From Natronorubrum daqingense (GTDB taxonomy: Archaea; Halobacteriota; Halobacteria; Halobacteriales; Natrialbaceae), in assembly GCF_001971705.1 (NCBI RefSeq), contig NZ_CP019327.1:2232001-2296000 (forward strand): a stretch of 64,000 nucleotides of DNA, read 5' to 3'. The translations under genes were made by a program, and so were the position numbers. The stretch's first letter is position 1; every line of letters begins with the position of its first letter. The notes under the pieces were generated by a model. The model was not told where the DNA came from. It did not search any database and saw nothing but the letters and a program-made list of their open reading frames with translations. Of the stretch, positions 1 through 48,954 are shown piece after piece.

Positions 1-255
1 GGCGATCATACAGGCCGTGAAGTTGACGTTTAGGTCGCCCGTCAGGGCCCCCAAGGCGTCAGCGTCGGCTATTCCGGCTGTCTCGAGCACGTCTTCTTTC
101 GAGCCGTCGCCGTCGACGACGGTGAACTCTTGGGAACGGGCCCGGCGAATCATCCCCTCGTCGCGTTCGATTAGCGTCACCTCGTGGCCTTCGTCTCGGA
201 GGACGCGCGCCGTGCGCAAGCCGACTCGTCCTGCCCCGATAATCACGAACCGCAT
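1..255 (-). CDS. trkA: TrkA-type NAD-binding K+ uptake regulator (N-terminal part)
   Basis: Partial gene read leftward off the window edge; 85 codons are visible from the ATG at 253-255. The protein begins with a Rossmann nucleotide-binding motif, MRFVIIGAGRVGLRTARVL, followed by an acidic residue at the end of the second strand (TLIERD) and a conserved VVDGDGS segment. This is the RCK/TrkA_N fold, which binds NAD(H) or ATP and gates K+ transport by Trk/Ktr-type membrane subunits at the cytoplasmic face. K+ uptake is central to salt-in halophiles. It is divergent from the small AsnC-type protein at 377, a neighbour often seen with trkA in haloarchaea (from memory). The C-terminal half lies outside the window, so one versus two RCK domains cannot be judged. 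Confidence 0.85.
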   Translation of the reverse strand, partial: MRFVIIGAGRVGLRTARVLRDEGHEVTLIERDEGMIRRARSQEFTVVDGDGSKEDVLETAGIADADALGALTGDLNVNFTACMIA

Positions 256-339
256 GGCCCGGAGTACGCTCGCCCCACCAATAAGCTTGCCCCCAAGTAC
301 CATGCTAGACGTTCAGTTTCCGCTCGAGAACGGGCAAAG

Positions 340-345
340 TTTTTA
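340..345 (+). promoter_or_regulatory. TATA-like box for the AsnC-type gene
   Basis: TTTTTA about 35 nt before the ATG at 377 fits an archaeal TATA box giving a very short leader. An imperfect dyad (GTGTG at 349-353, CACAC at 363-367) lies between the box and the gene and could bind a regulator. Pattern reading only. Confidence 0.4.
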
Positions 346-376
346 GTCGTGTGATAGTGTACCACACCTTCGAGCG

Positions 377-607
377 ATGGTTCACGCATTTATTATGGTG
401 AAGACGGCAGCCGGGAAATCAGAGGGGCTCCTCGAGTCGATTCGTGACCTCGAGGCAGTGTCCGACGCGCACATCGTCGCTGGCGACTACGACATTATCG
501 TCGAGATCGACGCCGCGGAAGTCTACGATATCCTTCAGAGCGTCTCCTCAGAATTACAGAGCCTCGAGGGCGTCACGGAGACGAAGACGTACATCGCGAT
601 GGACTAG
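377..607 (+). CDS. Stand-alone AsnC/Lrp ligand-binding (RAM) domain protein
   Basis: The 76-residue protein (MVHAFIMVKTAAGKSEGLL...) is entirely a RAM/AsnC ligand-binding domain with no helix-turn-helix. The phasing is typical of the family: a beta strand ending AFIMVKT, a helix, then HIVAGDYDIIVEID and a last strand TKTYIAMD. Full Lrp proteins carry this domain after a DNA-binding domain. Single-domain versions (SraM-like) are thought to bind amino acids or form mixed oligomers with full-length Lrp proteins. It is divergent from trkA across 121 nt, so the two may share control, and the small ligand may couple to K+ transport; that link is inference. A TATA-like run lies just upstream. Confidence 0.85.
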   Translation: MVHAFIMVKTAAGKSEGLLESIRDLEAVSDAHIVAGDYDIIVEIDAAEVYDILQSVSSELQSLEGVTETKTYIAMD

Positions 608-626
608 CACCGAAGTTTTGCGCTAC

Positions 627-645
627 GGGTCGGCTTCGCCGACCC
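627..645. repeat. Perfect inverted repeat downstream of the AsnC-type gene
   Basis: GGGTCGGC-TTC-GCCGACCC forms an 8-bp stem with a 3-nt loop 20 nt after the stop codon. Outside it TTTTGC (617-622) and a matching GCAAAA extend the symmetry with an internal loop. It could form a transcript-end hairpin, but no U-tract follows on either strand. Confidence 0.5.
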
Positions 646-882
646 TCGGCAAAAATTCGATTAAAAGCACTCCTCCCTCCGTTCGTTCCCTTCAGTCACT
701 CACATCGGTCGTCGGCCCGCTCGCTCAGCCTGCGGCTTCGCTCGCGGTCGATGAACGGTCGCATGCCTGCCTTTCCCCGAGGCGCGCACCGCTCGCGGTG
801 CTCGAGGCGCGCGCCCGGCCATCTGAACGACGTGAATCCGAGCTCAAAAGAGAATAAGCGGACGACGACCGGTCGCTCGTTT

Positions 883-1407
883 TTACATCGGCATCCCGCC
901 GCTCTCTCCCTCGCTGGCCTGCTGGCCGCGGCCCTGTGCGTTCTCGAGCAACGTCGCGGCGGGGCCACGGTACTCGTAGCCGGGGATAATTCCCTGTGCG
1001 TACGTTCCTTCGACGTACTCGACGAGCGTCTTCGCGTCCTCGACGCCCTCGCCGGCGTCCCAGGCGGAGTACTCGAGTGAGACCGTCACGTTGCTCGCTT
1101 CGCGTTCGACCACCGGGTCGTCGTGGGTGTCGGTGTACGCGACGGTGTAGACGTCCTCGAGTCGTCGCTCGAGCGTCTCGAACCAGCCGTCTTCGACGAC
1201 TGACGCGACGGTCTCGCCGGCGACGGCGGCGTCGAGGGTGGGGAGCGTGACGGTGACGTGAAATCGGCCGGCTCGCTTATCTGGGGCGGGTTCGGCGTCG
1301 ATTTGGGTCTCGAAGACGGTCGTCTCGAGTGCGAAAGCGTCGTCTGCGCGCGCGAACGCGTCGTGAGACTCGAGTCCGGCCGCGATTTCCTCGGGAAGGG
1401 TGCTCAT
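883..1407 (-). CDS. Haloarchaeal conserved protein, DUF5813-like
   Basis: 174 residues, acidic and soluble, with no signal peptide or membrane segment. The N-terminal half alternates strand-like segments (FHVTVTLPTLDAAV, ASNVTVSLEYSAWD), and a conserved-looking stretch TYAQGIIPGYEYRGPAATLL precedes a Gly/Met-rich tail. I recognise the pattern as the haloarchaeal family catalogued as DUF5813; this is from memory and no activity is known to me. The start ATG at 1405-1407 is the natural one and the codon use matches its neighbours. It is a single-gene unit on the minus strand, ending about 275 nt from the convergent AsnC-type gene; that gap holds only inverted repeats. Confidence 0.7.
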   Translation of the reverse strand: MSTLPEEIAAGLESHDAFARADDAFALETTVFETQIDAEPAPDKRAGRFHVTVTLPTLDAAVAGETVASVVEDGWFETLERRLEDVYTVAYTDTHDDPVVEREASNVTVSLEYSAWDAGEGVEDAKTLVEYVEGTYAQGIIPGYEYRGPAATLLENAQGRGQQASEGESGGMPM

Positions 1408-1813
1408 TATGAATTCGAAGGGGCGTGAGCGAAAAGGGTGTTACGCTGTCGGCCGACTGTATCGTGGGGCTACTATCACGAAGGTAACTGTTACAGCGGG
1501 TAAATCGCCATACTGCGGCGGGATCGTTTCACGATCGTAGTCGCGGCTTTCGGGGACAAATGGGCTGCATTACTACAACGGATATTGCCGTTTTCCGTCG
1601 GCATGAGTCTCGATAAACACGCCGCCGAACGCCGCCGATTCGCTCGTCTGCTCGGAACCGACGGCGAACTCGGCTGTGGCTTGCCGATCGGCACCCACTC
1701 GAGTCGCCACGCCGGCGACGATGCCGACCGCGACCATCCTCCGAAACGAACGGCACCCTCGAGCGACTCGAGCGGTGAGTAGGTGCAGAAAGGGAGTGCG
1801 TCGACGCGGGTAA
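1408..1813. other. Intergenic stretch with no confident gene
   Basis: 406 nt between the DUF5813-like gene and the 129-residue gene that follows. The only candidate is a 59-codon reading frame on the plus strand (1603-1782), listed separately with low confidence. No RNA gene or strong repeat is evident. Confidence 0.5.
1603..1782 (+). CDS. Possible small hypothetical protein
   Basis: 59 codons from an ATG, MSLDKHAAERRRFARLLG..., ending in a Ser/Asp-rich tail. Third codon positions are mostly G or C in the first half, as in real genes here, but no domain is recognisable, the C-terminus is low-complexity and no clear TATA box precedes it. It could equally be spurious in this GC-rich DNA. Confidence 0.2.
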   Translation: MSLDKHAAERRRFARLLGTDGELGCGLPIGTHSSRHAGDDADRDHPPKRTAPSSDSSGE

Positions 1814-2203
1814 TTACTCGATTTCGCGGGAGTCGAGGAACGAATTGAGCGCCGTCGCGACCTCTTCGAAGTCCTTGACGGTGAGTCCGTCGGTCGTGAC
1901 GAAGACGCCTTCGCTATCGTTCGTGACGCGGATGAGGAAGCCGTTGTCGAAGACGCGGATCGTGTAGTTGTAGTCGCCGAGTTCCGACCCGTCGTAGGCC
2001 GTCTGGGCGGTCTTGAAGCCGCGCCACTCGTGGCCGATGAACGTCGAGAGGTCGGCGTCGCGCTCGAGGTCGTCGCGGAGGTACAGTTGTTGGTAGTCGT
2101 CGCGCGCGAAGTACGTCGCCGACCGAAGGCTGTCGCCGATGGCCGTTCGGCAGGTCGTGACGATCTGGTCCGCTGCGTCCTCGGTGAGTAGCCCGGTTGC
2201 CAT
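1814..2203 (-). CDS. Conserved haloarchaeal hypothetical protein
   Basis: 129 residues from MATGLLTEDAADQIVTTCR. I place the start at the ATG at 2201-2203 because the open frame upstream is only the shadow of the metY gene. The protein is acidic, cytoplasmic and alpha/beta in pattern, with a helical N-terminus, then paired strands (YNYTIRVFDNGFLIRVTN, GVFVTTDG) and a C-terminal helix (DFEEVATALNSFLD). I do not recognise a functional family; it resembles small single-domain proteins annotated only by DUF numbers in haloarchaea. It lies 95 nt downstream of metY on the same strand and may be co-transcribed or have its own promoter. Confidence 0.7.
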   Translation of the reverse strand: MATGLLTEDAADQIVTTCRTAIGDSLRSATYFARDDYQQLYLRDDLERDADLSTFIGHEWRGFKTAQTAYDGSELGDYNYTIRVFDNGFLIRVTNDSEGVFVTTDGLTVKDFEEVATALNSFLDSREIE

Positions 2204-2298
2204 AGCGACCACTCGAACGTCCGACACCTTAATGACGATGGATATTACTGTCCACCTGATAACACGTCGGCGACGGAGTCGACCTACGCGAAGTCGAC

Positions 2299-3591
2299 CT
2301 ACGCGAGTTCGATCGCTCGCTCGAGGTCCGCGATCACGTCGGCGACGTCTTCGATACCCACGGAGAGGCGGACGAGGTCGTCGGTGGTGCCACTCGCCAG
2401 TTTCTCCTCCTCGGTGAGTTGCTGGTGGGTCGTGCTTGCCGGGTGGATGATCAGCGTCTTCGCGTCGCCAACGTTCGCCAGCAGACTCGCGAGGTCGACC
2501 TCGTTGCAGACGGTCTCGGCCGCGTCGTAGCCGCCTTCGAGACCGAACGTGATCATGCCGCCGTACCCCCCTTCGAGGTACTCGCTGGCTTCTTCGTGAG
2601 TCTCGTGGCTCTCGAGGCCGGGGTAGTTGACCCAGGAGACCTTCTCGTGGTCCTCGAGGAACTCGGCGACGGCCATCGCGTTCTCGCAGTGTTTTTCCAT
2701 TCGAAGGGGCAGCGACTCGAGTTTCTGGAGGGTCGTCCAGGCGTCGAAGGGCGACTGCTGGTTTCCGAGGTCGCGCAGGCCGCGGGTTCGAGCGACCATG
2801 GCGAACGCCATGTCGCCGAACGTTTCGTAAAAGTTGACGCCGTGGTAGGCCGGGTTCGGCTCCGAGATTTCGGGGTAGTCGCCCTCTTCCCACGGGAACG
2901 AGCCGCCGTCGACCAGCACCCCGCCGACCGTCGAACCCGCGCCGTGGAGCCACTTCGTCGTCGAGTTCCAGACGAGGTCCGCGCCGTGCTCGAGCGGGCG
3001 ACAGAGGTACGGCGTCGCGAACGTGTTGTCGACGAACAGCGGTACGTCGTGGTCGTGGGCGATGTCGGCGATGCGCTCGATGTCGGGCGTGACGAGGGCG
3101 GGGTTGCCGATCGTCTCGAGGTGGACGAACGCCGTGTCGTCGTCGATCGCTTCCTCGTAGGCGTCGTAATCCAGCGTATCGACGAACTTCGTCTCGATAC
3201 CGCGCTTTGCGACGGTGTGGGTGAGGTAGGTGTAGGTGCCGCCGTACAGCGACGAGGCGGAGACGATGTTGTCGCCGACGTCGGCGAGGATGAACGTCGC
3301 GAGGTCGAATGCGGCCATTCCCGACGCGGTCGCGAGCGCCCCGACGCCGCCCTCGAGCGTCGCGATACGCTCTTCTAACATCGCGTTCGTCGGGTTCATG
3401 ATCCGCGAGTAGATGTTTCCGGCCTCCTCGAGTCCGAAGAGGGCTGCCGCGTGGTCGGTATCGTCGAACTCGTAAGAGGTCGTCTGATAGATCGGCGGCG
3501 CTCGAGCCCCCGTAGCTGGGTCGGCCTTCTGCCCGGCGTGGACGCTGTTCGTCGCGAATCGGTGATCGTCGGCGTCGGCGTCGTCGCTCAT
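2299..3591 (-). CDS. metY: O-acetyl-L-homoserine sulfhydrylase (PLP enzyme)
   Basis: 430 residues, normal length for the Cys/Met metabolism PLP family. It opens with FATNSVHAGQKADPATGARA and PIYQTTSYEF. The pyridoxal-phosphate lysine lies in STTKWLHGAG near residue 210, the cofactor phosphate loop is ATASGMAAF, and VDNTFATPYL supplies the ring-binding Asp. The large-subunit layout fits O-acetylhomoserine aminocarboxypropyltransferase, which makes homocysteine (or methionine) from O-acetylhomoserine and sulfide. Cystathionine gamma-synthase is the less likely alternative. I start at MSDDADADDH (3591); an in-frame ATG five codons upstream (3606) is also possible. No homoserine acetyltransferase gene (metX) is adjacent in this window. 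It is divergent from the bat-type regulator at 3720. Confidence 0.92.
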   Translation of the reverse strand: MSDDADADDHRFATNSVHAGQKADPATGARAPPIYQTTSYEFDDTDHAAALFGLEEAGNIYSRIMNPTNAMLEERIATLEGGVGALATASGMAAFDLATFILADVGDNIVSASSLYGGTYTYLTHTVAKRGIETKFVDTLDYDAYEEAIDDDTAFVHLETIGNPALVTPDIERIADIAHDHDVPLFVDNTFATPYLCRPLEHGADLVWNSTTKWLHGAGSTVGGVLVDGGSFPWEEGDYPEISEPNPAYHGVNFYETFGDMAFAMVARTRGLRDLGNQQSPFDAWTTLQKLESLPLRMEKHCENAMAVAEFLEDHEKVSWVNYPGLESHETHEEASEYLEGGYGGMITFGLEGGYDAAETVCNEVDLASLLANVGDAKTLIIHPASTTHQQLTEEEKLASGTTDDLVRLSVGIEDVADVIADLERAIELA

Positions 3592-3664
3592 GTGGTTTTC
3601 TCCCACACGGTAGAACGCAAAAAGTGTTCGCGAAAATTGCCATCGGCTGGGAGTCGAGGCGTGG

Positions 3665-3682
3665 AGGCCACTGCTGTGGCCT
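3665..3682. promoter_or_regulatory. Palindrome upstream of the bat-type regulator
   Basis: AGGCCAC-TGCT-GTGGCCT is a perfect 7-bp inverted repeat with a 4-nt spacer, centred about 46 nt before the ATG at 3720 in the metY/regulator divergent region. That is the position of an activator or operator site just upstream of an archaeal core promoter. Inference from position and symmetry. Confidence 0.4.
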
Positions 3683-3719
3683 GCGCGAAGCTTTTCATCC
3701 GTTCAATTGTACGACGTTC

Positions 3720-4364
3720 ATGGCCATCGAAGCCTCGTTCGTCGCAACGGAAGGCGAGTTTCCGCTCGCCGAAGTATTTGCGAAGTTCCCCGCCAGCCGG
3801 ATCGAACTCGATCGGGTCGTTCCGACGAACAAGGCACTCGTCCCGTACTTTTGGCTCGAGGACGTGGACGAATCAGAAATTACGATGAGTGGTATCGAAC
3901 ATCCCGGCATCGACGACCTCCGCGTCATCGACGACGTCGACGGCCAAGTGTTCGTCCGGATCGGCTGGAACTTCGAATACGAGAGCATTCTCACGGGGAT
4001 TCTCGAGACGAACGTCTCACTCGTCTCGGCCATCGGCAAAGAGGATCGGTGGACGTTCGAGCTTCGGGCGACGGATCAAGACGATATCTCCGCGTTTCAA
4101 ACCTACTGTCGCGACCGAGACATCCCCGTCGAACTCACGCAGCTTCACGCGCTCTCCCCAGTCCGAGACGACTACGACCTGACTGACGCCCAGCGGGAAG
4201 CGCTGACGCTCGCCTACGCTCGAGGCTACTACGATTCACCGCGTGAGGCGTCACAGGAGGAGCTCGCCGAAGAGTTAGGAATCACCAGACAGGCGGTTGC
4301 CTCGAGATTGCAGCGAGGAACCAGACGGTTGATCGCAGGGTCGATCGTCGAATCCGCCGAGTGA
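3720..4364 (+). CDS. Bat-type helix-turn-helix transcription regulator
   Basis: 214 residues. The N-terminal 150 residues form the bacterio-opsin-activator-type sensing domain (GAF/HTH-associated fold; EASFVATEGEFPLAEVF, then strands around FVRIGWNF and WTFELRATDQ). The C-terminal 55 residues are an HTH_10 domain with the family signature LTDAQREALTLAYARGYYDSPR and EELAEELGITRQAVASRLQR. These proteins are archaeal transcription regulators, and no ligand can be read from the sequence. The ATG at 3720-3722 starts the domain precisely. It is divergent from metY with a palindrome between them, so regulation of sulfur amino-acid synthesis is possible but unproven. Confidence 0.88.
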   Translation: MAIEASFVATEGEFPLAEVFAKFPASRIELDRVVPTNKALVPYFWLEDVDESEITMSGIEHPGIDDLRVIDDVDGQVFVRIGWNFEYESILTGILETNVSLVSAIGKEDRWTFELRATDQDDISAFQTYCRDRDIPVELTQLHALSPVRDDYDLTDAQREALTLAYARGYYDSPREASQEELAEELGITRQAVASRLQRGTRRLIAGSIVESAE

Positions 4365-43215: not shown

Positions 43216-44148
43216 ATGCTCGACGAGTTGCTCGGCCGTGCCTCGCTCAAGGACCGAATCGACGACCTCGAGGAGGAAAACGACCGCCTCGAGAAGCGCT
43301 ACGAGGCGGAATCCGAGCGTCGAGCCGAGGCGACGACGGCCAGACAGGACGCCGAAGAGCGGGTGAACCGACTCGAGGACCGCATCGCTCAACTCGAGGG
43401 CGAACTCGAGCGAGTCGACGACAGCGGGCAGTCGCTCTCGCTTCGTCGTCGCGAACGTCTCCGGGGTACGCGACTCGAGGACGTCTTCTCCCGACTCGCG
43501 TCGTTTCGGACGGCACCCGAAGGAGCCATGACGGCCGTTCTCGAGGCCGACGACGAACTCGAAGACCTGGGAGACGAGTTCGGTGACGACCTCGAGGACG
43601 TACTGGGCGACCGACGCGGACTGGTCGCCGACGCCGCACCCTGTGTTCTGTGCGTCGACGACGCCGGCCTCGTCGCCGTCACGCTCGAGCCACCGGTGCT
43701 CCCGGAGAGCACGCCGAAACTCGAGTGGGACGACCGATTCGCGCTCGAACGCGAGTGGTTCCTCCCGACAGGGGAGTACGCGCTCGCGCTCCTCAGAGCC
43801 GACCTGTTCGCACTCGGCGTCTACGACGGTGGCGAACGCGTCGACTATCAGGGGTTCGAGAGCGACGTCAAGGGCAACCACTCGAAAGGCGGCTTCTCGC
43901 AGGCCCGATTCGAACGGATTCGCAACGACCAGATCGACGACCACCTCGAGCGCTGTGAGCGCGCGCTGGCCGACCACGACGTCGAGCGACTGTTCGTCGT
44001 CGGCCAGCGCGGCGTGATCGACACGCTCGTCTCGGAATCGGACCTCGAGCCGACCGGAACGGCCGCCGTCGACGCGACGGGGAGTCCAAAATCGGCGCTC
44101 GAGGACGCCCACCACTCGTTCTGGACGACCGACCTCCGAGTCCTGTAA
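43216..44148 (+). CDS. Vms1/Ankzf1-like peptidyl-tRNA hydrolase
   Basis: 310 residues. An N-terminal coiled coil (about 8-70, LKDRIDDLEEENDRLEKRYE onward) precedes an eRF1-like domain with the Vms1-type loop NHSKGGFSQARFERIRNDQI near residue 220. This loop carries the Gly-Gly-x-Ser-Gln pattern that supplies the catalytic Gln in place of the eRF1 GGQ loop. VERLFVVGQRGVIDTLVSES follows. Eukaryotic Vms1 cleaves peptidyl-tRNA on stalled 60S ribosomes, releasing the nascent chain. The archaeal protein is expected to do the same on stalled large subunits. The coiled coil may contact the ribosome. It ends 24 nt before a perfect palindrome. Confidence 0.82.
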   Translation: MLDELLGRASLKDRIDDLEEENDRLEKRYEAESERRAEATTARQDAEERVNRLEDRIAQLEGELERVDDSGQSLSLRRRERLRGTRLEDVFSRLASFRTAPEGAMTAVLEADDELEDLGDEFGDDLEDVLGDRRGLVADAAPCVLCVDDAGLVAVTLEPPVLPESTPKLEWDDRFALEREWFLPTGEYALALLRADLFALGVYDGGERVDYQGFESDVKGNHSKGGFSQARFERIRNDQIDDHLERCERALADHDVERLFVVGQRGVIDTLVSESDLEPTGTAAVDATGSPKSALEDAHHSFWTTDLRVL

Positions 44149-44171: not shown

Positions 44172-44195
44172 AGTGTCCACCGTTAAGTGGACACT
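44172..44195. promoter_or_regulatory. Perfect 9-bp palindrome before the DUF1611 gene
   Basis: AGTGTCCAC-CGTTAA-GTGGACACT lies 16-39 nt before the ATG at 44211. It could be an operator at the core promoter or a leader hairpin; it also ends 47 nt after the Vms1-like stop. It is one of the longest perfect dyads I saw in the window. Confidence 0.5.
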
Positions 44196-44210: not shown

Positions 44211-45230
44211 ATGAACGTCGCAATTCTTGCACACGAGAAGTTTCCAGACCGCGCCAAAACTGCCCTGGGCGTGCTTCGCTACGCCGATCACGACGCCGTC
44301 GCCGTGCTCGATTGGGACAACGCGGGTCAGCGCGTCAACGATTTCGTTCCGGACGTTCAGGACGCCCCGATCCGCGAGGGAATGGCAGACCTCGAGGCCG
44401 ACGAGGTCGACACGCTGCTCATCGGCATCGCTCCCATCGGCGGCGGCTTCGTCGAAAGTTGGCGCGAGGACGTCCGGACGGCACTCGAGTACGGCTGTGA
44501 CGTCGTTTCGGGCCTGCACTACTTCCTGAGCGAGGACGAGGAGTTCGTCCGACTCGCCGACGAGCACGGCTGTAAACTCGAAGACGTCCGAAAGCCCCCG
44601 GAGGATCTCACGGTCAGTCAGGGCATCGCCGGCGAGGTCGACGCGGAGATCATCCTCACCGTCGGCACCGACTGCTCGGTCGGCAAGATGACGACGACGA
44701 TGGAACTGGCTCGAGACGCCCGCGAGGCGGGACACGACGTCGGCGTGATCCCGACCGGCCAGACCGGTATTATGATCGAAGGCTGGGGGAACCCGATCGA
44801 TCGCGTCGTCTCGGACTTCACCGCGGGCGCGGTCGAAGAGATGATCCTCGAGAAGGCGGACGAGCACGACTACCTCTTCGTCGAAGGGCAAGGGAGCATC
44901 GTCCACCCGGCTTATTCGGCCGTCACCTGCGGTATCCTCCACGGCGCGATGGCCGACAAACTCGTCCTCTGTCACGCCGCCGGTCGCGAGGAGATTCACG
45001 GCTACGAGTCGTTCGACGTTCCCGAACTCTCGACGTACGTGGACCTCTACGAGGGACTCTCCGCTCCCGTCGCGGACGGCGAGGTCGTCGCCGGCGCGTT
45101 GAACACGACGAACCTTGCGGACGACGCCGCCGCCCAGGAAGCGGTCGAGGCGTACGCCGACGAACTCGGCGTCCCCGCGACGGACGTGATTCGCTTCGGA
45201 ACCGACGACGTACTGGAGGCGCTGTTCTGA
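44211..45230 (+). CDS. dgcN: DUF1611 (DgcN-type) P-loop protein
   Basis: 339 residues from MNVAILAHEKFPDRAKTALG, the start that follows the palindrome. A Rossmann-like N-terminal domain contains LLIGIAPIGGGFVESWREDV; the C-terminal P-loop domain has IILTVGTDCSVGKMTTTMEL near residue 160, GVIPTGQTGIMIEGWGNPID, and FVEGQGSIVHPAYSAVTCGI. This is the DUF1611 family. In marine bacteria DgcN is described as an N-acyltransferase acting on D-glutamate ahead of the racemase DgcA. The next gene, 2 nt downstream, is a DgcA-like epimerase, so the pair is probably a unit for D-amino-acid or N-acyl-glutamate conversion. GatD follows it. Confidence 0.82.
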   Translation: MNVAILAHEKFPDRAKTALGVLRYADHDAVAVLDWDNAGQRVNDFVPDVQDAPIREGMADLEADEVDTLLIGIAPIGGGFVESWREDVRTALEYGCDVVSGLHYFLSEDEEFVRLADEHGCKLEDVRKPPEDLTVSQGIAGEVDAEIILTVGTDCSVGKMTTTMELARDAREAGHDVGVIPTGQTGIMIEGWGNPIDRVVSDFTAGAVEEMILEKADEHDYLFVEGQGSIVHPAYSAVTCGILHGAMADKLVLCHAAGREEIHGYESFDVPELSTYVDLYEGLSAPVADGEVVAGALNTTNLADDAAAQEAVEAYADELGVPATDVIRFGTDDVLEALF

Positions 45231-45232
45231 CG

Positions 45233-46273
45233 ATGTCCCTCGAGACGCGCTTCGAACGACACACGCTGCCCCTCGAGTACCCCTTCACCATCGCCCGCGG
45301 GACGACGACCGAGACGGAGGTCGTCACGGTTCGCATCGAGGACGAGGACGGAACCGTGGGTATCGGCGGCGCGGGACCGTCCGCACACTACGGCGAGACC
45401 GTCGACACCGTGAGCGCCGTGTTGCCCGACCTGCTCGCGGCCGTCGAGGACGTGGACGACCCCCACCGACTCGAGCGAATCGAACGGCGGATGCGCGAGA
45501 CGGTGAACCGAAATCCCGCCGCTCGCTGCGCCGTCAGCATCGCGCTCCACGATCTGGTCGCGAAATCGCTCGACGTGCCCCTCTATCGGTACTGGGGACT
45601 CGATCCGAGCGAGACGCTCGAGACCTCCTACACCATCGGGATCGACGACACGGAGACCATGCGCGAGAAGACCGAGACGGCCCTCGAGCGCGGTTTCTCG
45701 ACGCTGAAGGTCAAACTCGGGACGGATCGCGATCGGGAGATTATCGAGACGATTCGGTCCGTCGCCCCCGACGTGACGCTCTTCGTCGACGCGAACGAGG
45801 CCTGGACGCCCCGGGAAGCGGTCTCGAAGATCGACCGTCTCGCCGAGTACGACCTCGCGTTCGTCGAACAGCCGGTTTCCGCCGAGGACCCCGAGGGACT
45901 CGAGTTCGTTTACGAGCGCTCCGCCCTCCCGATCGCGGCCGACGAGTCCTGCATCACGCTCGAGGATATTCCGCGGATCGCCGACCGCTGTGACATCGCC
46001 AACCTGAAACTCATGAAGTGTGGCGGCCTGCGGGAAGCGAAGCGGATGATCCACGCCGCCCGCGCACACGGTCTCGAGGTCATGTGTGGCTGTATGACCG
46101 AGTCCAACGCCTCCATCGCCGCCGCCACTCACCTCGCACCGCTGCTCGACTACGCCGACCTCGACGGCTCGCTGTTGCTCGCCGCGGACCCCTACGACGG
46201 CGTCCCCGTCGACGACGGCGAGATCGACCTTGCCGGACTCGAGCGATCCGGAACCGGCGCGGTGCTCGAGTGA
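45233..46273 (+). CDS. dgcA: Enolase-superfamily dipeptide/N-acyl-amino-acid epimerase
   Basis: 346 residues, starting 2 nt after the DUF1611 stop. The capping domain (about 1-120) holds EYPFTIARGTTTETEVVTVR; the barrel has the epimerase catalytic lysine pair, STLKVKLGTDRD near residue 160 and NLKLMKCGGLREAKR near 258. Metal ligands are in FVDANEAWTPREA, VEQPVSAEDPEGL and IAADESCITLEDI. This matches L-Ala-D/L-Glu epimerases and the related DgcA N-acetyl-D-glutamate racemase. Peptidoglycan dipeptides are absent from haloarchaea, so a role on acyl-glutamate with the upstream DUF1611 enzyme is more likely. The two genes are translationally coupled. Confidence 0.88.
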   Translation: MSLETRFERHTLPLEYPFTIARGTTTETEVVTVRIEDEDGTVGIGGAGPSAHYGETVDTVSAVLPDLLAAVEDVDDPHRLERIERRMRETVNRNPAARCAVSIALHDLVAKSLDVPLYRYWGLDPSETLETSYTIGIDDTETMREKTETALERGFSTLKVKLGTDRDREIIETIRSVAPDVTLFVDANEAWTPREAVSKIDRLAEYDLAFVEQPVSAEDPEGLEFVYERSALPIAADESCITLEDIPRIADRCDIANLKLMKCGGLREAKRMIHAARAHGLEVMCGCMTESNASIAAATHLAPLLDYADLDGSLLLAADPYDGVPVDDGEIDLAGLERSGTGAVLE

Positions 46274-46322
46274 GAACGGACGAAAGCGTGCCTTCAAGTC
46301 CACCGCCGCGCAACGCCAACCC

Positions 46323-47570
46323 ATGAACCCAGGCGATCGCGTTCGCGTCGACCGCGCGGATCGCACGTACGAAGGCGTGTTGCTCCCCTCGAGCACCGAC
46401 GACCACCTCGTCGTCAAACTCGAGGGCGGCTACAACGTCGGTATCGACAGCGAGGCGGCCGACGTCGACGTGCTCGAGGAGGACGTCTACGAAATCGACG
46501 GCGACGGTGCCGAGGAGGAGACGGGCTCCGAAGTCGAGTTCGACGAGGACCTGCCGACGATTTCGCTCATTTCGACGGGCGGCACCATCGCGTCGACGGT
46601 CGACTACCGCACCGGCGCGGTGACGGCCCAGTTCGACGCCGAGGACGTGCTTCGGGCGGTTCCGGATCTCGCGGGTCGCGCGAACTACCGCGGGCGCGTC
46701 GTCGCGAACATCCTCTCTGAGAACATGGAACCGCCGCTCTGGCAGGACCTCGCACGGGCCGTCGCCGAGGAGATCGAAGCCGGTGCCGACGGCGTCGTCG
46801 TCATGCACGGCACCGACACCATGCAGTACTCCGCCTCGGCACTTTCGTTCATGCTCGAGACGCCCGTCCCGATCGTCTTCACGGGAAGCCAGCGCTCGGC
46901 GGATCGACCGTCTTCGGACAACGTGATGAACGCCGTGTCGGCCGTCGAGGCCGCAAAGAGCGACTGCGCGGAGGTACTCGTCTGCATGCACGGCTCCGAG
47001 AGCGACGATATCTGTGCGCTCCACCGTGGAACTCGCATTCGGAAGAATCACACCTCCCGACGCGACGCCTTCGAGACCGTCGGTGCGGAGCCGCTGGGAA
47101 CAGTGGACTACGACACCGAGGAGGTCAGCTTCCGTCGTGAGTACCACGAGCGAGACGAGACCGACCTCGAGATCGCGGACGAACTCGCGAGCGACGTCGA
47201 ACTGCTGAAGTTCACGCCCGGAATGGACCCCGCCTTCCTCGACGTGGTCGAGGGAAGCGACGGGCTGGTCATCGAGGGAACCGGTCTCGGGCACGTCCAC
47301 ACCGATCTGATCCCCCGAATCAAGGAGCTAATCGAGGACGGCATGACAGTTGTCATGACGAGTCAATGTCTCGAGGGCCGGGTCTGTGATCGGGTCTACG
47401 ACACGGGTCGGGACCTGCTCGAGGCCGGCGTCGTCGAAGCCGGCGACACCCTGCCGGGGACCGCGAAGGTGAAGCTCATGTGGGCACTCGAGAACAGCGA
47501 ACACGTTGAGGAGGCCATGGGAACGTCGCTCGCAGGCGAGATTCAGGAACGATCCGTTCCCTGGGAGTAA
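46323..47570 (+). CDS. gatD: Glutamyl-tRNA(Gln) amidotransferase subunit D
   Basis: 415 residues from MNPGDRVRVDRADRTYEGVL. A beta-barrel N-terminal domain (about 1-75) is followed by an L-asparaginase-type domain. Catalytic features are present: ISTGGTIASTVDYRTGAVT with the first Thr, VVMHGTDTMQYSASAL with the second Thr and Asp, VFTGSQRSADRPSSDN, and RTGRILRKN-type segment GTRIRKNHTSRRDAFETVG. GatD releases ammonia from glutamine and channels it to GatE, which transamidates Glu-tRNA(Gln) to Gln-tRNA(Gln), the archaeal route. gatE is not adjacent in the window. It is 49 nt downstream of the epimerase. Confidence 0.95.
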   Translation: MNPGDRVRVDRADRTYEGVLLPSSTDDHLVVKLEGGYNVGIDSEAADVDVLEEDVYEIDGDGAEEETGSEVEFDEDLPTISLISTGGTIASTVDYRTGAVTAQFDAEDVLRAVPDLAGRANYRGRVVANILSENMEPPLWQDLARAVAEEIEAGADGVVVMHGTDTMQYSASALSFMLETPVPIVFTGSQRSADRPSSDNVMNAVSAVEAAKSDCAEVLVCMHGSESDDICALHRGTRIRKNHTSRRDAFETVGAEPLGTVDYDTEEVSFRREYHERDETDLEIADELASDVELLKFTPGMDPAFLDVVEGSDGLVIEGTGLGHVHTDLIPRIKELIEDGMTVVMTSQCLEGRVCDRVYDTGRDLLEAGVVEAGDTLPGTAKVKLMWALENSEHVEEAMGTSLAGEIQERSVPWE

Positions 47571-47940: not shown

Positions 47941-48954
47941 ATGAACGAGCGGACCGACGATGCTGATGAAGACGCCGACGCGAGCGCAGCCACGAGCGAG
48001 TTCGACCTCGAGATTCGGCGTGCGACTCACGACGATTACGACGGCGTCGTCGCCTTCACGAGCGACATCTGGCCGGATCGAGGCGGCGACTACATCCCCG
48101 ACGTCTACCACGACTGGCTCGAGGACGACGAGGAGACGGGGAAGAAGACGTTCCTCGCCGAGGTCGACGGCGAGGCGGCCGGAATCGTTCAGGGCGTCAT
48201 GCTCACCGACGACGAAGCGTGGTTCCAGGGGATGCGCGTCGCGGCCGACCACCGACGCAAGGGCGTGAGCCACCGATTGAACGAGTCGTTGTTCGAGTGG
48301 GCCCGCGAACAGGACGCGACGGTCGCCCGCGTCATGATCTTCTCGTGGAACCAGGCCTCGCTCGGCTCCGCGCGCTACAGCGGCTACGAACCGCTCACGG
48401 AGTTTCGCTTTGCCCATCCCGAACCCGACGCCGACCTCGACCCCGGCCCTGATGCTGACTCTGATGCCGACACAACGAGATCGGAACGGGTCTCGAGCGA
48501 TCCCGCGGCGGCCTGGCGCTACTGGACCCACAGCGACGCCCGCGAGCACCTGAGCGGGCTCGGACTCGCGCCCGAAGAGTCCTGGGCCATGCGGGAACTC
48601 ACGCGATCGGATTTCGAGCGCTTCGCCGACGAGACGGCCCTCTTCGCCGTCGAACGCGAGGACGGCGTCGCCGGCGTTTCCTACCGCACGCGGACGTACG
48701 ACCGCCCCGTCGAGGACGGCGGCGAGGAGACGACGGAAACCTGGGCCGAGTACGGCGTCGGCGCGTGGGAGGACGTCGAAGCCGCCCGGTCGCTGTTCGC
48801 AGCCATCGCTCGAGACGCAGCCGAGTGTGGTGCAGACGAGACGCGCGTACTGATTCCAGAAACTGCCAGGGACGTCAGCGACGCCCCCTTCGCCGGAGTC
48901 GAAATCGCCGAGGAGCCGGATTTCGTTCTCGGAACTGACCTGACTGGAGAGTGA
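47941..48954 (+). CDS. GNAT acetyltransferase with a second C-terminal module
   Basis: 337 residues from MNERTDDADEDADASAATSE. The GNAT domain (about residues 22-150) shows the acetyl-CoA-binding motif A, FQGMRVAADHRRKGVSHRLN (R/Q-x-x-G-x-G/A type), and the strand-helix pairs DLEIRRATHDDYDGVVAFTS and VARVMIFSWNQASLGSARYS. An acidic low-complexity bridge (about 160-185) leads to about 145 residues that look like a second, degenerate GNAT half: ESWAMRELTRSDFERFADET, AVEREDGVAGVSYRT. Such double proteins often have one active and one structural module. The acceptor is unknown. Single-gene unit. Confidence 0.82.
   Translation: MNERTDDADEDADASAATSEFDLEIRRATHDDYDGVVAFTSDIWPDRGGDYIPDVYHDWLEDDEETGKKTFLAEVDGEAAGIVQGVMLTDDEAWFQGMRVAADHRRKGVSHRLNESLFEWAREQDATVARVMIFSWNQASLGSARYSGYEPLTEFRFAHPEPDADLDPGPDADSDADTTRSERVSSDPAAAWRYWTHSDAREHLSGLGLAPEESWAMRELTRSDFERFADETALFAVEREDGVAGVSYRTRTYDRPVEDGGEETTETWAEYGVGAWEDVEAARSLFAAIARDAAECGADETRVLIPETARDVSDAPFAGVEIAEEPDFVLGTDLTGE

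Follow-up and report, generated by a model that had tools for sequence, protein, structure and literature searches.

The subject of this report is a pair of adjacent genes in the haloarchaeon Natronorubrum daqingense, encoding a DUF1611 protein and an enolase-superfamily epimerase or racemase. They lie in a stretch of 64,000 nucleotides of contig NZ_CP019327.1 (positions 2,232,001 to 2,296,000; hereafter the window, to which coordinates refer), taken from a genome of 3.84 Mb that is 99.94% complete. Together with gatD, which encodes subunit D of the Glu-tRNA(Gln) amidotransferase, they form three intact and consecutive open reading frames (ORFs) on the plus strand, the DUF1611 and epimerase genes being separated by 2 nt and the epimerase gene and gatD by 49 nt. 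A first-pass annotation had placed the three genes at these positions, with the same 2 nt within the pair, and our coordinates and the Pfam and NCBIfam matches agree with it (Table 1). The DUF1611 protein joins an N-terminal Rossmann-like domain to a C-terminal P-loop domain (VGTDCSVGKM ... PTGQTG ... VEGQGS). The active-site positions of the epimerase are K159-x-K161, D186, E212, D237, K262 and D309-x-D311, with Arg22 near the N-terminus. The gatD product belongs to its named family, scoring 614.5 bits against the GatD model (NF003217), for which the NCBIfam cut-off is 310.

DUF1611 and the epimerase constitute a genuine, conserved two-gene unit that is common in Halobacteria, where DUF1611 is present in 176 of 194 genomes; Haloferax volcanii, which served as a control for this survey, has the family as well. 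In that count 179 genomes were matched and 177 exceeded the cut-off; G104, G037 and G182, with matches at a weak, BioD-like level only, were scored as lacking the gene, because such matches read as BioD-like. A second match in the source genome itself (34 bits) was set aside as a dethiobiotin synthase on account of its VGTDTDVGK motif, which we take to be BioD-like. Flanking sequence of approximately 14–16 kb around DUF1611 was fetched from one representative of each of 49 genera among the matches listed, the other 16 of the 65 genera (g6, g13, g17-g20, g28, g34, g39, g40, g44, g45, g48, g51, g59 and g65) being unlisted, weak, absent or passed over. In 47 of the 49 loci the gene directly 3′ of DUF1611, in the same orientation, encodes an epimerase, so that the position adjoining DUF1611 that is expected of a DgcA is occupied in all but two; of the exceptions, L070 (genome G117) comes from a genome with a strong epimerase at another place, and L080 (genome G160) from one with no strong epimerase. 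Stop-to-start spacing falls between −10 and +10 nt in 45/48 pairs, the window included, and 31/48 share a 4-nt overlap; the three outliers are at −448, −259 and +137 nt, the first two probably being artefacts of scripted start-codon choice. Since the epimerase is so regularly downstream and so tightly spaced, the pairing is not due to chance. The two genes also occur together at the level of the genome: among 30 hand-picked genomes, 12 with DUF1611 and 18 without, a strong epimerase (at least 341 bits) was found in 11 of the former and in none of the latter, where the best match reached 114 bits. The first-pass view of the two genes as a paired unit, homologous to the bacterial DgcN-DgcA pair, is borne out. 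On haloarchaeal plasmids there is another DUF1611 lineage, distinct from this one; it stands alone in L086 and L087 and in L088 is flanked by two genes annotated as dipeptide epimerases, both lacking Arg22.

The pair has a promoter-like box of its own. An A/T box starting 24–40 nt before the DUF1611 start codon, mostly at −29 or −30, is present in 31 of 50 loci, and in at most 2 of 50 control segments taken further upstream; the TATA-like box of the window is probably the pair's own promoter and, judged by its position, would direct leaderless transcription. A scan for sigma-70 promoters and terminators, a type unsuited to archaea, found nothing. The box of the window is also the centre of a perfect inverted repeat, its 9-bp arms enclosing a loop of 6 nt (AGTGTCCAC-CGTTAA-GTGGACACT, 44172-44195), which was considered as a conserved operator and ruled out, since none like it was found at the other 49 loci.

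Table 1. Features of the DUF1611-epimerase locus, in window coordinates
Feature	Position	Strand	Evidence
acVLRF1/eRF1-like protein gene (Vms1-type release-factor family), 5′ of DUF1611	43216..44148	+	Pfam acVLRF1, 122 bits
TATA-like box TTAAGT, 28 nt 5′ of DUF1611 start	44183..44188	+	A/T box recurrent across loci
DUF1611 protein gene, DgcN-like, 339 aa (ATG at 44211, stop ending at 45230)	44211..45230	+	Pfam PF17396, 106 bits; PF07755, 244 bits
Enolase-superfamily epimerase/racemase gene, DgcA-like, 346 aa (ATG at 45233, stop ending at 46273)	45233..46273	+	Pfam MR_MLE_N/C
Rearrangement breakpoint between epimerase and gatD, just past the epimerase stop	46272..46282		Match ends in congeners
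TTCAAG box within GAAAGCGTGCCTTCAAGTCC, gatD promoter-like element	46293..46298	+	Kept in congeners
gatD, Glu-tRNA(Gln) amidotransferase subunit D (ATG at 46323, stop ending at 47570)	46323..47570	+	Pfam GatD_N and asparaginase domains

DgcN reportedly acetylates D-glutamate (D-Glu) and DgcA is said to racemise N-acetyl-D-Glu, both proteins being, according to a 2023 study, reportedly widespread in Halobacteria. The title of Yu et al. (2023, ISME J) names halophilic archaea in connection with the DgcN-DgcA pathway of D-Glu, and a DgcN-DgcA route is described for Shewanella (PMC10845958). The occurrence of the pathway in halophilic archaea is already published, and the unit, real and conserved as it is, belongs to a kind already known; no further study of haloarchaeal DgcN, DgcA or DUF1611 proteins appeared in the literature search listings. 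The pair resembles DgcN-DgcA in its two protein families and their gene order, in the near-overlap of the genes and in its catalytic residues, Arg22 among them. Both DUF1611 domains and the motifs GTDC, TGQTG, EGQG and NT are common to the haloarchaeal proteins and DgcN, with 45 invariant columns among 17 sequences from both clades. All 48 haloarchaeal epimerases examined belong to the muconate-lactonising/dipeptide-epimerase subgroup of the enolase superfamily and retain the KxK motif, three acidic metal ligands, the second catalytic lysine and Asp-x-Asp. Arg22, in an I[AS]R motif of the N-terminal loop, is likewise invariant (48/48); it recurs in the annotated DgcA of Sphingobium and Pantoea and in the E. 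coli enzyme 1jpd, and is not found at the equivalent position in 1jpm, 3iji and 3jva. We assume that the Arg22 loop contacts the glutamate side chain, and as a sequence feature its invariance fits a glutamate-type substrate.

Because of the homology to DgcN and DgcA, and of conserved residues that include Arg22, we read the pair, with a probability of roughly 60%, as a haloarchaeal DgcN/DgcA-like module, expressed as one transcription unit and turning a D-glutamate-type amino acid into its L form by acylation, racemisation of the N-acylated intermediate and deacylation. What is at stake is whether wall-less archaea in brines really turn over D-Glu. As to substrate, acyl donor, direction, deacylase and physiological role, we infer the following. 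DUF1611 would acylate the amino group of D-Glu (with acetyl, by homology); the epimerase would then remove the alpha-proton between its two lysines, at a metal site stabilising the enolate, and re-protonate the opposite face; and an ArgE/DapE-type or other M20 hydrolase encoded elsewhere in the genome would release L-Glu. There are 11 M20-family places above the Pfam cut-off in the source genome; the eight that were looked at in detail are named as ArgE/DapE-type proteins, amidohydrolases or dipeptidases, and enzymes of this family could supply the deacylation step. No Asp/Glu racemase (PF01177) was found in the source genome. For an organism without peptidoglycan, the likely role would be scavenging of D-Glu from bacterial wall debris.

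Several observations weigh against assigning the pair to DgcN-DgcA in the strict sense. DgcN (NF041892) and DgcA (NF042940) are the best NCBIfam models for the two window proteins, yet the scores stay well under the curated cut-offs, at 255 bits against 480 and 257.6 bits against 400 respectively. Five further haloarchaeal proteins of each kind likewise fall short (DUF1611, 248–278 bits; epimerase, 217–271 bits), whereas the proteobacterial proteins pass, three of three in each case (523–568 and 423–505 bits). Among solved structures, the closest to the DUF1611 protein is PDB 2obn (207 bits), a hypothetical protein, presumably cyanobacterial and not DgcN, followed by 7xrj (169 bits), which we take to be DgcN, and 2g0t (160 bits); the closest to the epimerase is 3iji (241 bits), not an N-acetylglutamate racemase, followed by 3jva (191 bits) and 1jpd (169 bits). 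In neither phylogeny do the haloarchaeal proteins fall within the DgcN or DgcA group. The DUF1611 tree has 57 rows, selected among 49 haloarchaeal loci and 87 others together with the PDB entries and the window; it contains a DgcN clade of 23 rows (support 100/100, stem 1.23), in which 7xrj is placed beside Tritonibacter among proteins that pass the DgcN cut-off, and a haloarchaeal clade of 15 rows (100/99) that falls outside it. The epimerase tree, with 40 rows once the truncated L124, L125 and L162 had been removed, splits 14 against 26 at 100/100 and leaves the haloarchaeal proteins outside the DgcA half, in company with Chloroflexota, Actinomycetota, Eremiobacterota and others, and with 3iji, 1jpm and 3jva. 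The DgcA half itself includes the E. coli L-Ala-D/L-Glu epimerase, and clade membership therefore does not fix the substrate. Finally, no same-strand downstream partner, deacylase or transporter recurs beside the haloarchaeal pair across the 49 loci, in a clustering that kept some spurious ORFs.

The first-pass annotation had described the pair as matching DgcN-DgcA, and this is right as far as homology and best models go but too strong in view of the scores and of both trees: the pair resembles DgcN-DgcA by order, families and residues, and lies inside neither family by membership tests. Applying the names DgcN and DgcA to the haloarchaeal proteins would mean relying on distant homology, at about half the DgcN cut-off score and across separate clades. 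Forcing the haloarchaeal and DgcN sequences into a single clade is not rejected (p-AU 0.168), so that haloarchaeal DUF1611 may be sister to the DgcN clade.

The bacterial relatives bear on how deep this separation is. The annotated dgcN-dgcA genes of Sphingobium stand in the same order beside a dicarboxylate/amino-acid symporter, and those of Pantoea, again in the same order, beside ABC transporter genes named for glutathione; unlike these loci, the haloarchaeal pair is linked neither to a symporter or ABC transporter nor to a LysR-type regulator. Relatives of 2obn in Cyanobacteria, Chloroflexota, Planctomycetota, Eremiobacterota and Fidelibacterota keep the pairing in either gene order, the epimerase being upstream of DUF1611 in the cyanobacterial L230 and L237, but they differ from the haloarchaeal pair in having bacterial hosts and in neighbours among which are genes for a D-Ala-D-Ala carboxypeptidase and for a peptide-binding protein. 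In a pattern scan of at least 117 loci, an adjacent same-strand epimerase was present in 42/54 evaluable DgcN-like and 6/11 evaluable window-like loci (evaluable meaning not near the locus end); loci L204-L240 entered only this adjacency count and the DgcN-like/window-like classification, in which 28 loci came out as window-like, the window protein being the best of four queries for 23 of them. Since pairing is found on both sides of the trees, it probably predates the split of the DgcN-like and window-like lineages, and for the haloarchaeal pair the substrate is one that we infer. Among 60 genomes of the phylum, DUF1611_N occurs in five of seven from the window's own order or family and in none of the other 53, a distribution that fits acquisition of the pair from bacteria, probably by a haloarchaeal ancestor. 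At one window-like bacterial locus, L143, the pair adjoins a peptide-binding protein, and the same family is present by clustering in L147. A locus from Fidelibacterota (Neomarinimicrobiota), L152, has three consecutive genes at 241-4072, for DUF1611, the epimerase and a D-Ala-D-Ala carboxypeptidase (Peptidase_S13), an arrangement that hints at a cell-wall link in bacteria.

One might go further and propose two old, separately co-inherited DUF1611-epimerase lineages, of which that of haloarchaea, Cyanobacteria, Chloroflexota and their relatives would not be DgcN-DgcA but a parallel module for N-acyl-amino-acid epimerisation, with its own substrate or acyl donor and a household purpose in wall-less haloarchaea. 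We regard this as a tentative and improbable idea.

A rival explanation, which we also consider unlikely, is that the epimerase is a true dipeptide epimerase of the L-Ala-D/L-Glu type, salvaging murein peptides while DUF1611 carries out a different step on the same peptide or its product. Dipeptide epimerases (1jpd, 1jpm, 3iji and 3jva) share with the haloarchaeal enzyme their enolase-superfamily subgroup and the KxK/D/E/D/K and Asp-x-Asp residues; they differ in that the haloarchaeal enzyme is paired with DUF1611 and has Arg22 in common with 1jpd only. L-Ala-D/L-Glu epimerase is the second-ranked NCBIfam model for the window protein (206.9 bits), and the nearest structure, 3iji, although deposited as a muconate cycloisomerase, is presumably a Bacteroides dipeptide epimerase. 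The carboxypeptidase of L152 and the peptide-binding protein of L143, and of L147 by clustering, adjoin pairs on the same side of the trees and speak for this explanation. However, the DgcA model outscores the dipeptide-epimerase models in all 11 epimerases scanned, and the function named for DUF1611, the N-acetyltransferase activity of DgcN according to annotation and literature, is hard to fit into a simple epimerisation of dipeptides. The Asp-x-Asp motif, which we take to contact the dipeptide ammonium group and which every haloarchaeal copy keeps, might seem to favour dipeptides; annotated DgcA has it too, and it was therefore set aside as uninformative for specificity.

A third explanation, more doubtful again, keeps the chemistry of a DgcN/DgcA-like module and changes its purpose, so that what the pair handles would be, in place of scavenged D-Glu, a different endogenous D- or N-acylated amino acid, such as D-Asp or some N-acylated metabolite. 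The depth and separateness of the haloarchaeal lineage in both trees are consistent with this, as are retention in 176/194 genomes, which looks more household-like than optional and catabolic, and the lack of an uptake gene recurring beside the pair. Against it, the invariant Arg22 is shared with glutamate-type relatives, and the absence of the pair from 18/194 genomes means that it is dispensable.

The position of gatD invites a further explanation, put forward on first pass, that GatD works together with the pair in a block devoted to glutamate and glutamine, clearing D-amino acids or recycling acyl-Glu near tRNA-dependent Gln synthesis. One-strand adjacency in the window and one congener speaks for it, as does the presence of gatD approximately 4–7 kb from the pair, within the fetched flanks, in 18 of the 49 genera; but gatD is downstream of the pair in none of the 49, and all 18 nearby copies are upstream and on the opposite strand, so that linkage surveyed across Halobacteria is not conserved. 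Within the genus, a 1001-nt probe spanning the epimerase-gatD junction is contiguous in only two of ten genomes (the window's own and G197, which is 96% identical; another of the ten, G195, has 13% contamination). In the other eight the match stops at window positions 46263-46271 and picks up again at 46276-46282, either on the other strand or some 50 kb off: in six, gatD lies beyond the far end of the VLRF1-DUF1611-epimerase block and is transcribed divergently from it, and in two (G116 and G199) it is about 50 kb away. Because so many congeners have the junction interrupted immediately past the stop codon of the epimerase, the gene order of the window is best explained by a recent local rearrangement, most simply an inversion. 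The element GAAAGCGTGCCTTCAAGTCC upstream of gatD is identical to that of the window in five congeneric gatD upstream regions read, of eight tried, with gatD beside the epimerase in none of them, and gatD has therefore retained a promoter-like element that belongs to gatD itself. Dense sampling thus answers the proposed gatD link in the negative, leaving a common haloarchaeal pair with its own promoter-like box and gatD as a bystander neighbour outside that unit; a functional link is unsupported and, in our estimate, most improbable.

The commonest other neighbour of the pair is the acVLRF1/eRF1-like gene, found in the fetched flanks of 34 of the 49 genus representatives, whose product is a possible haloarchaeal ribosome-rescue factor. 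On the other side, 3′ of gatD, the window has a GNAT acetyltransferase-like gene (47941-48954) that remains beside gatD in congeners.

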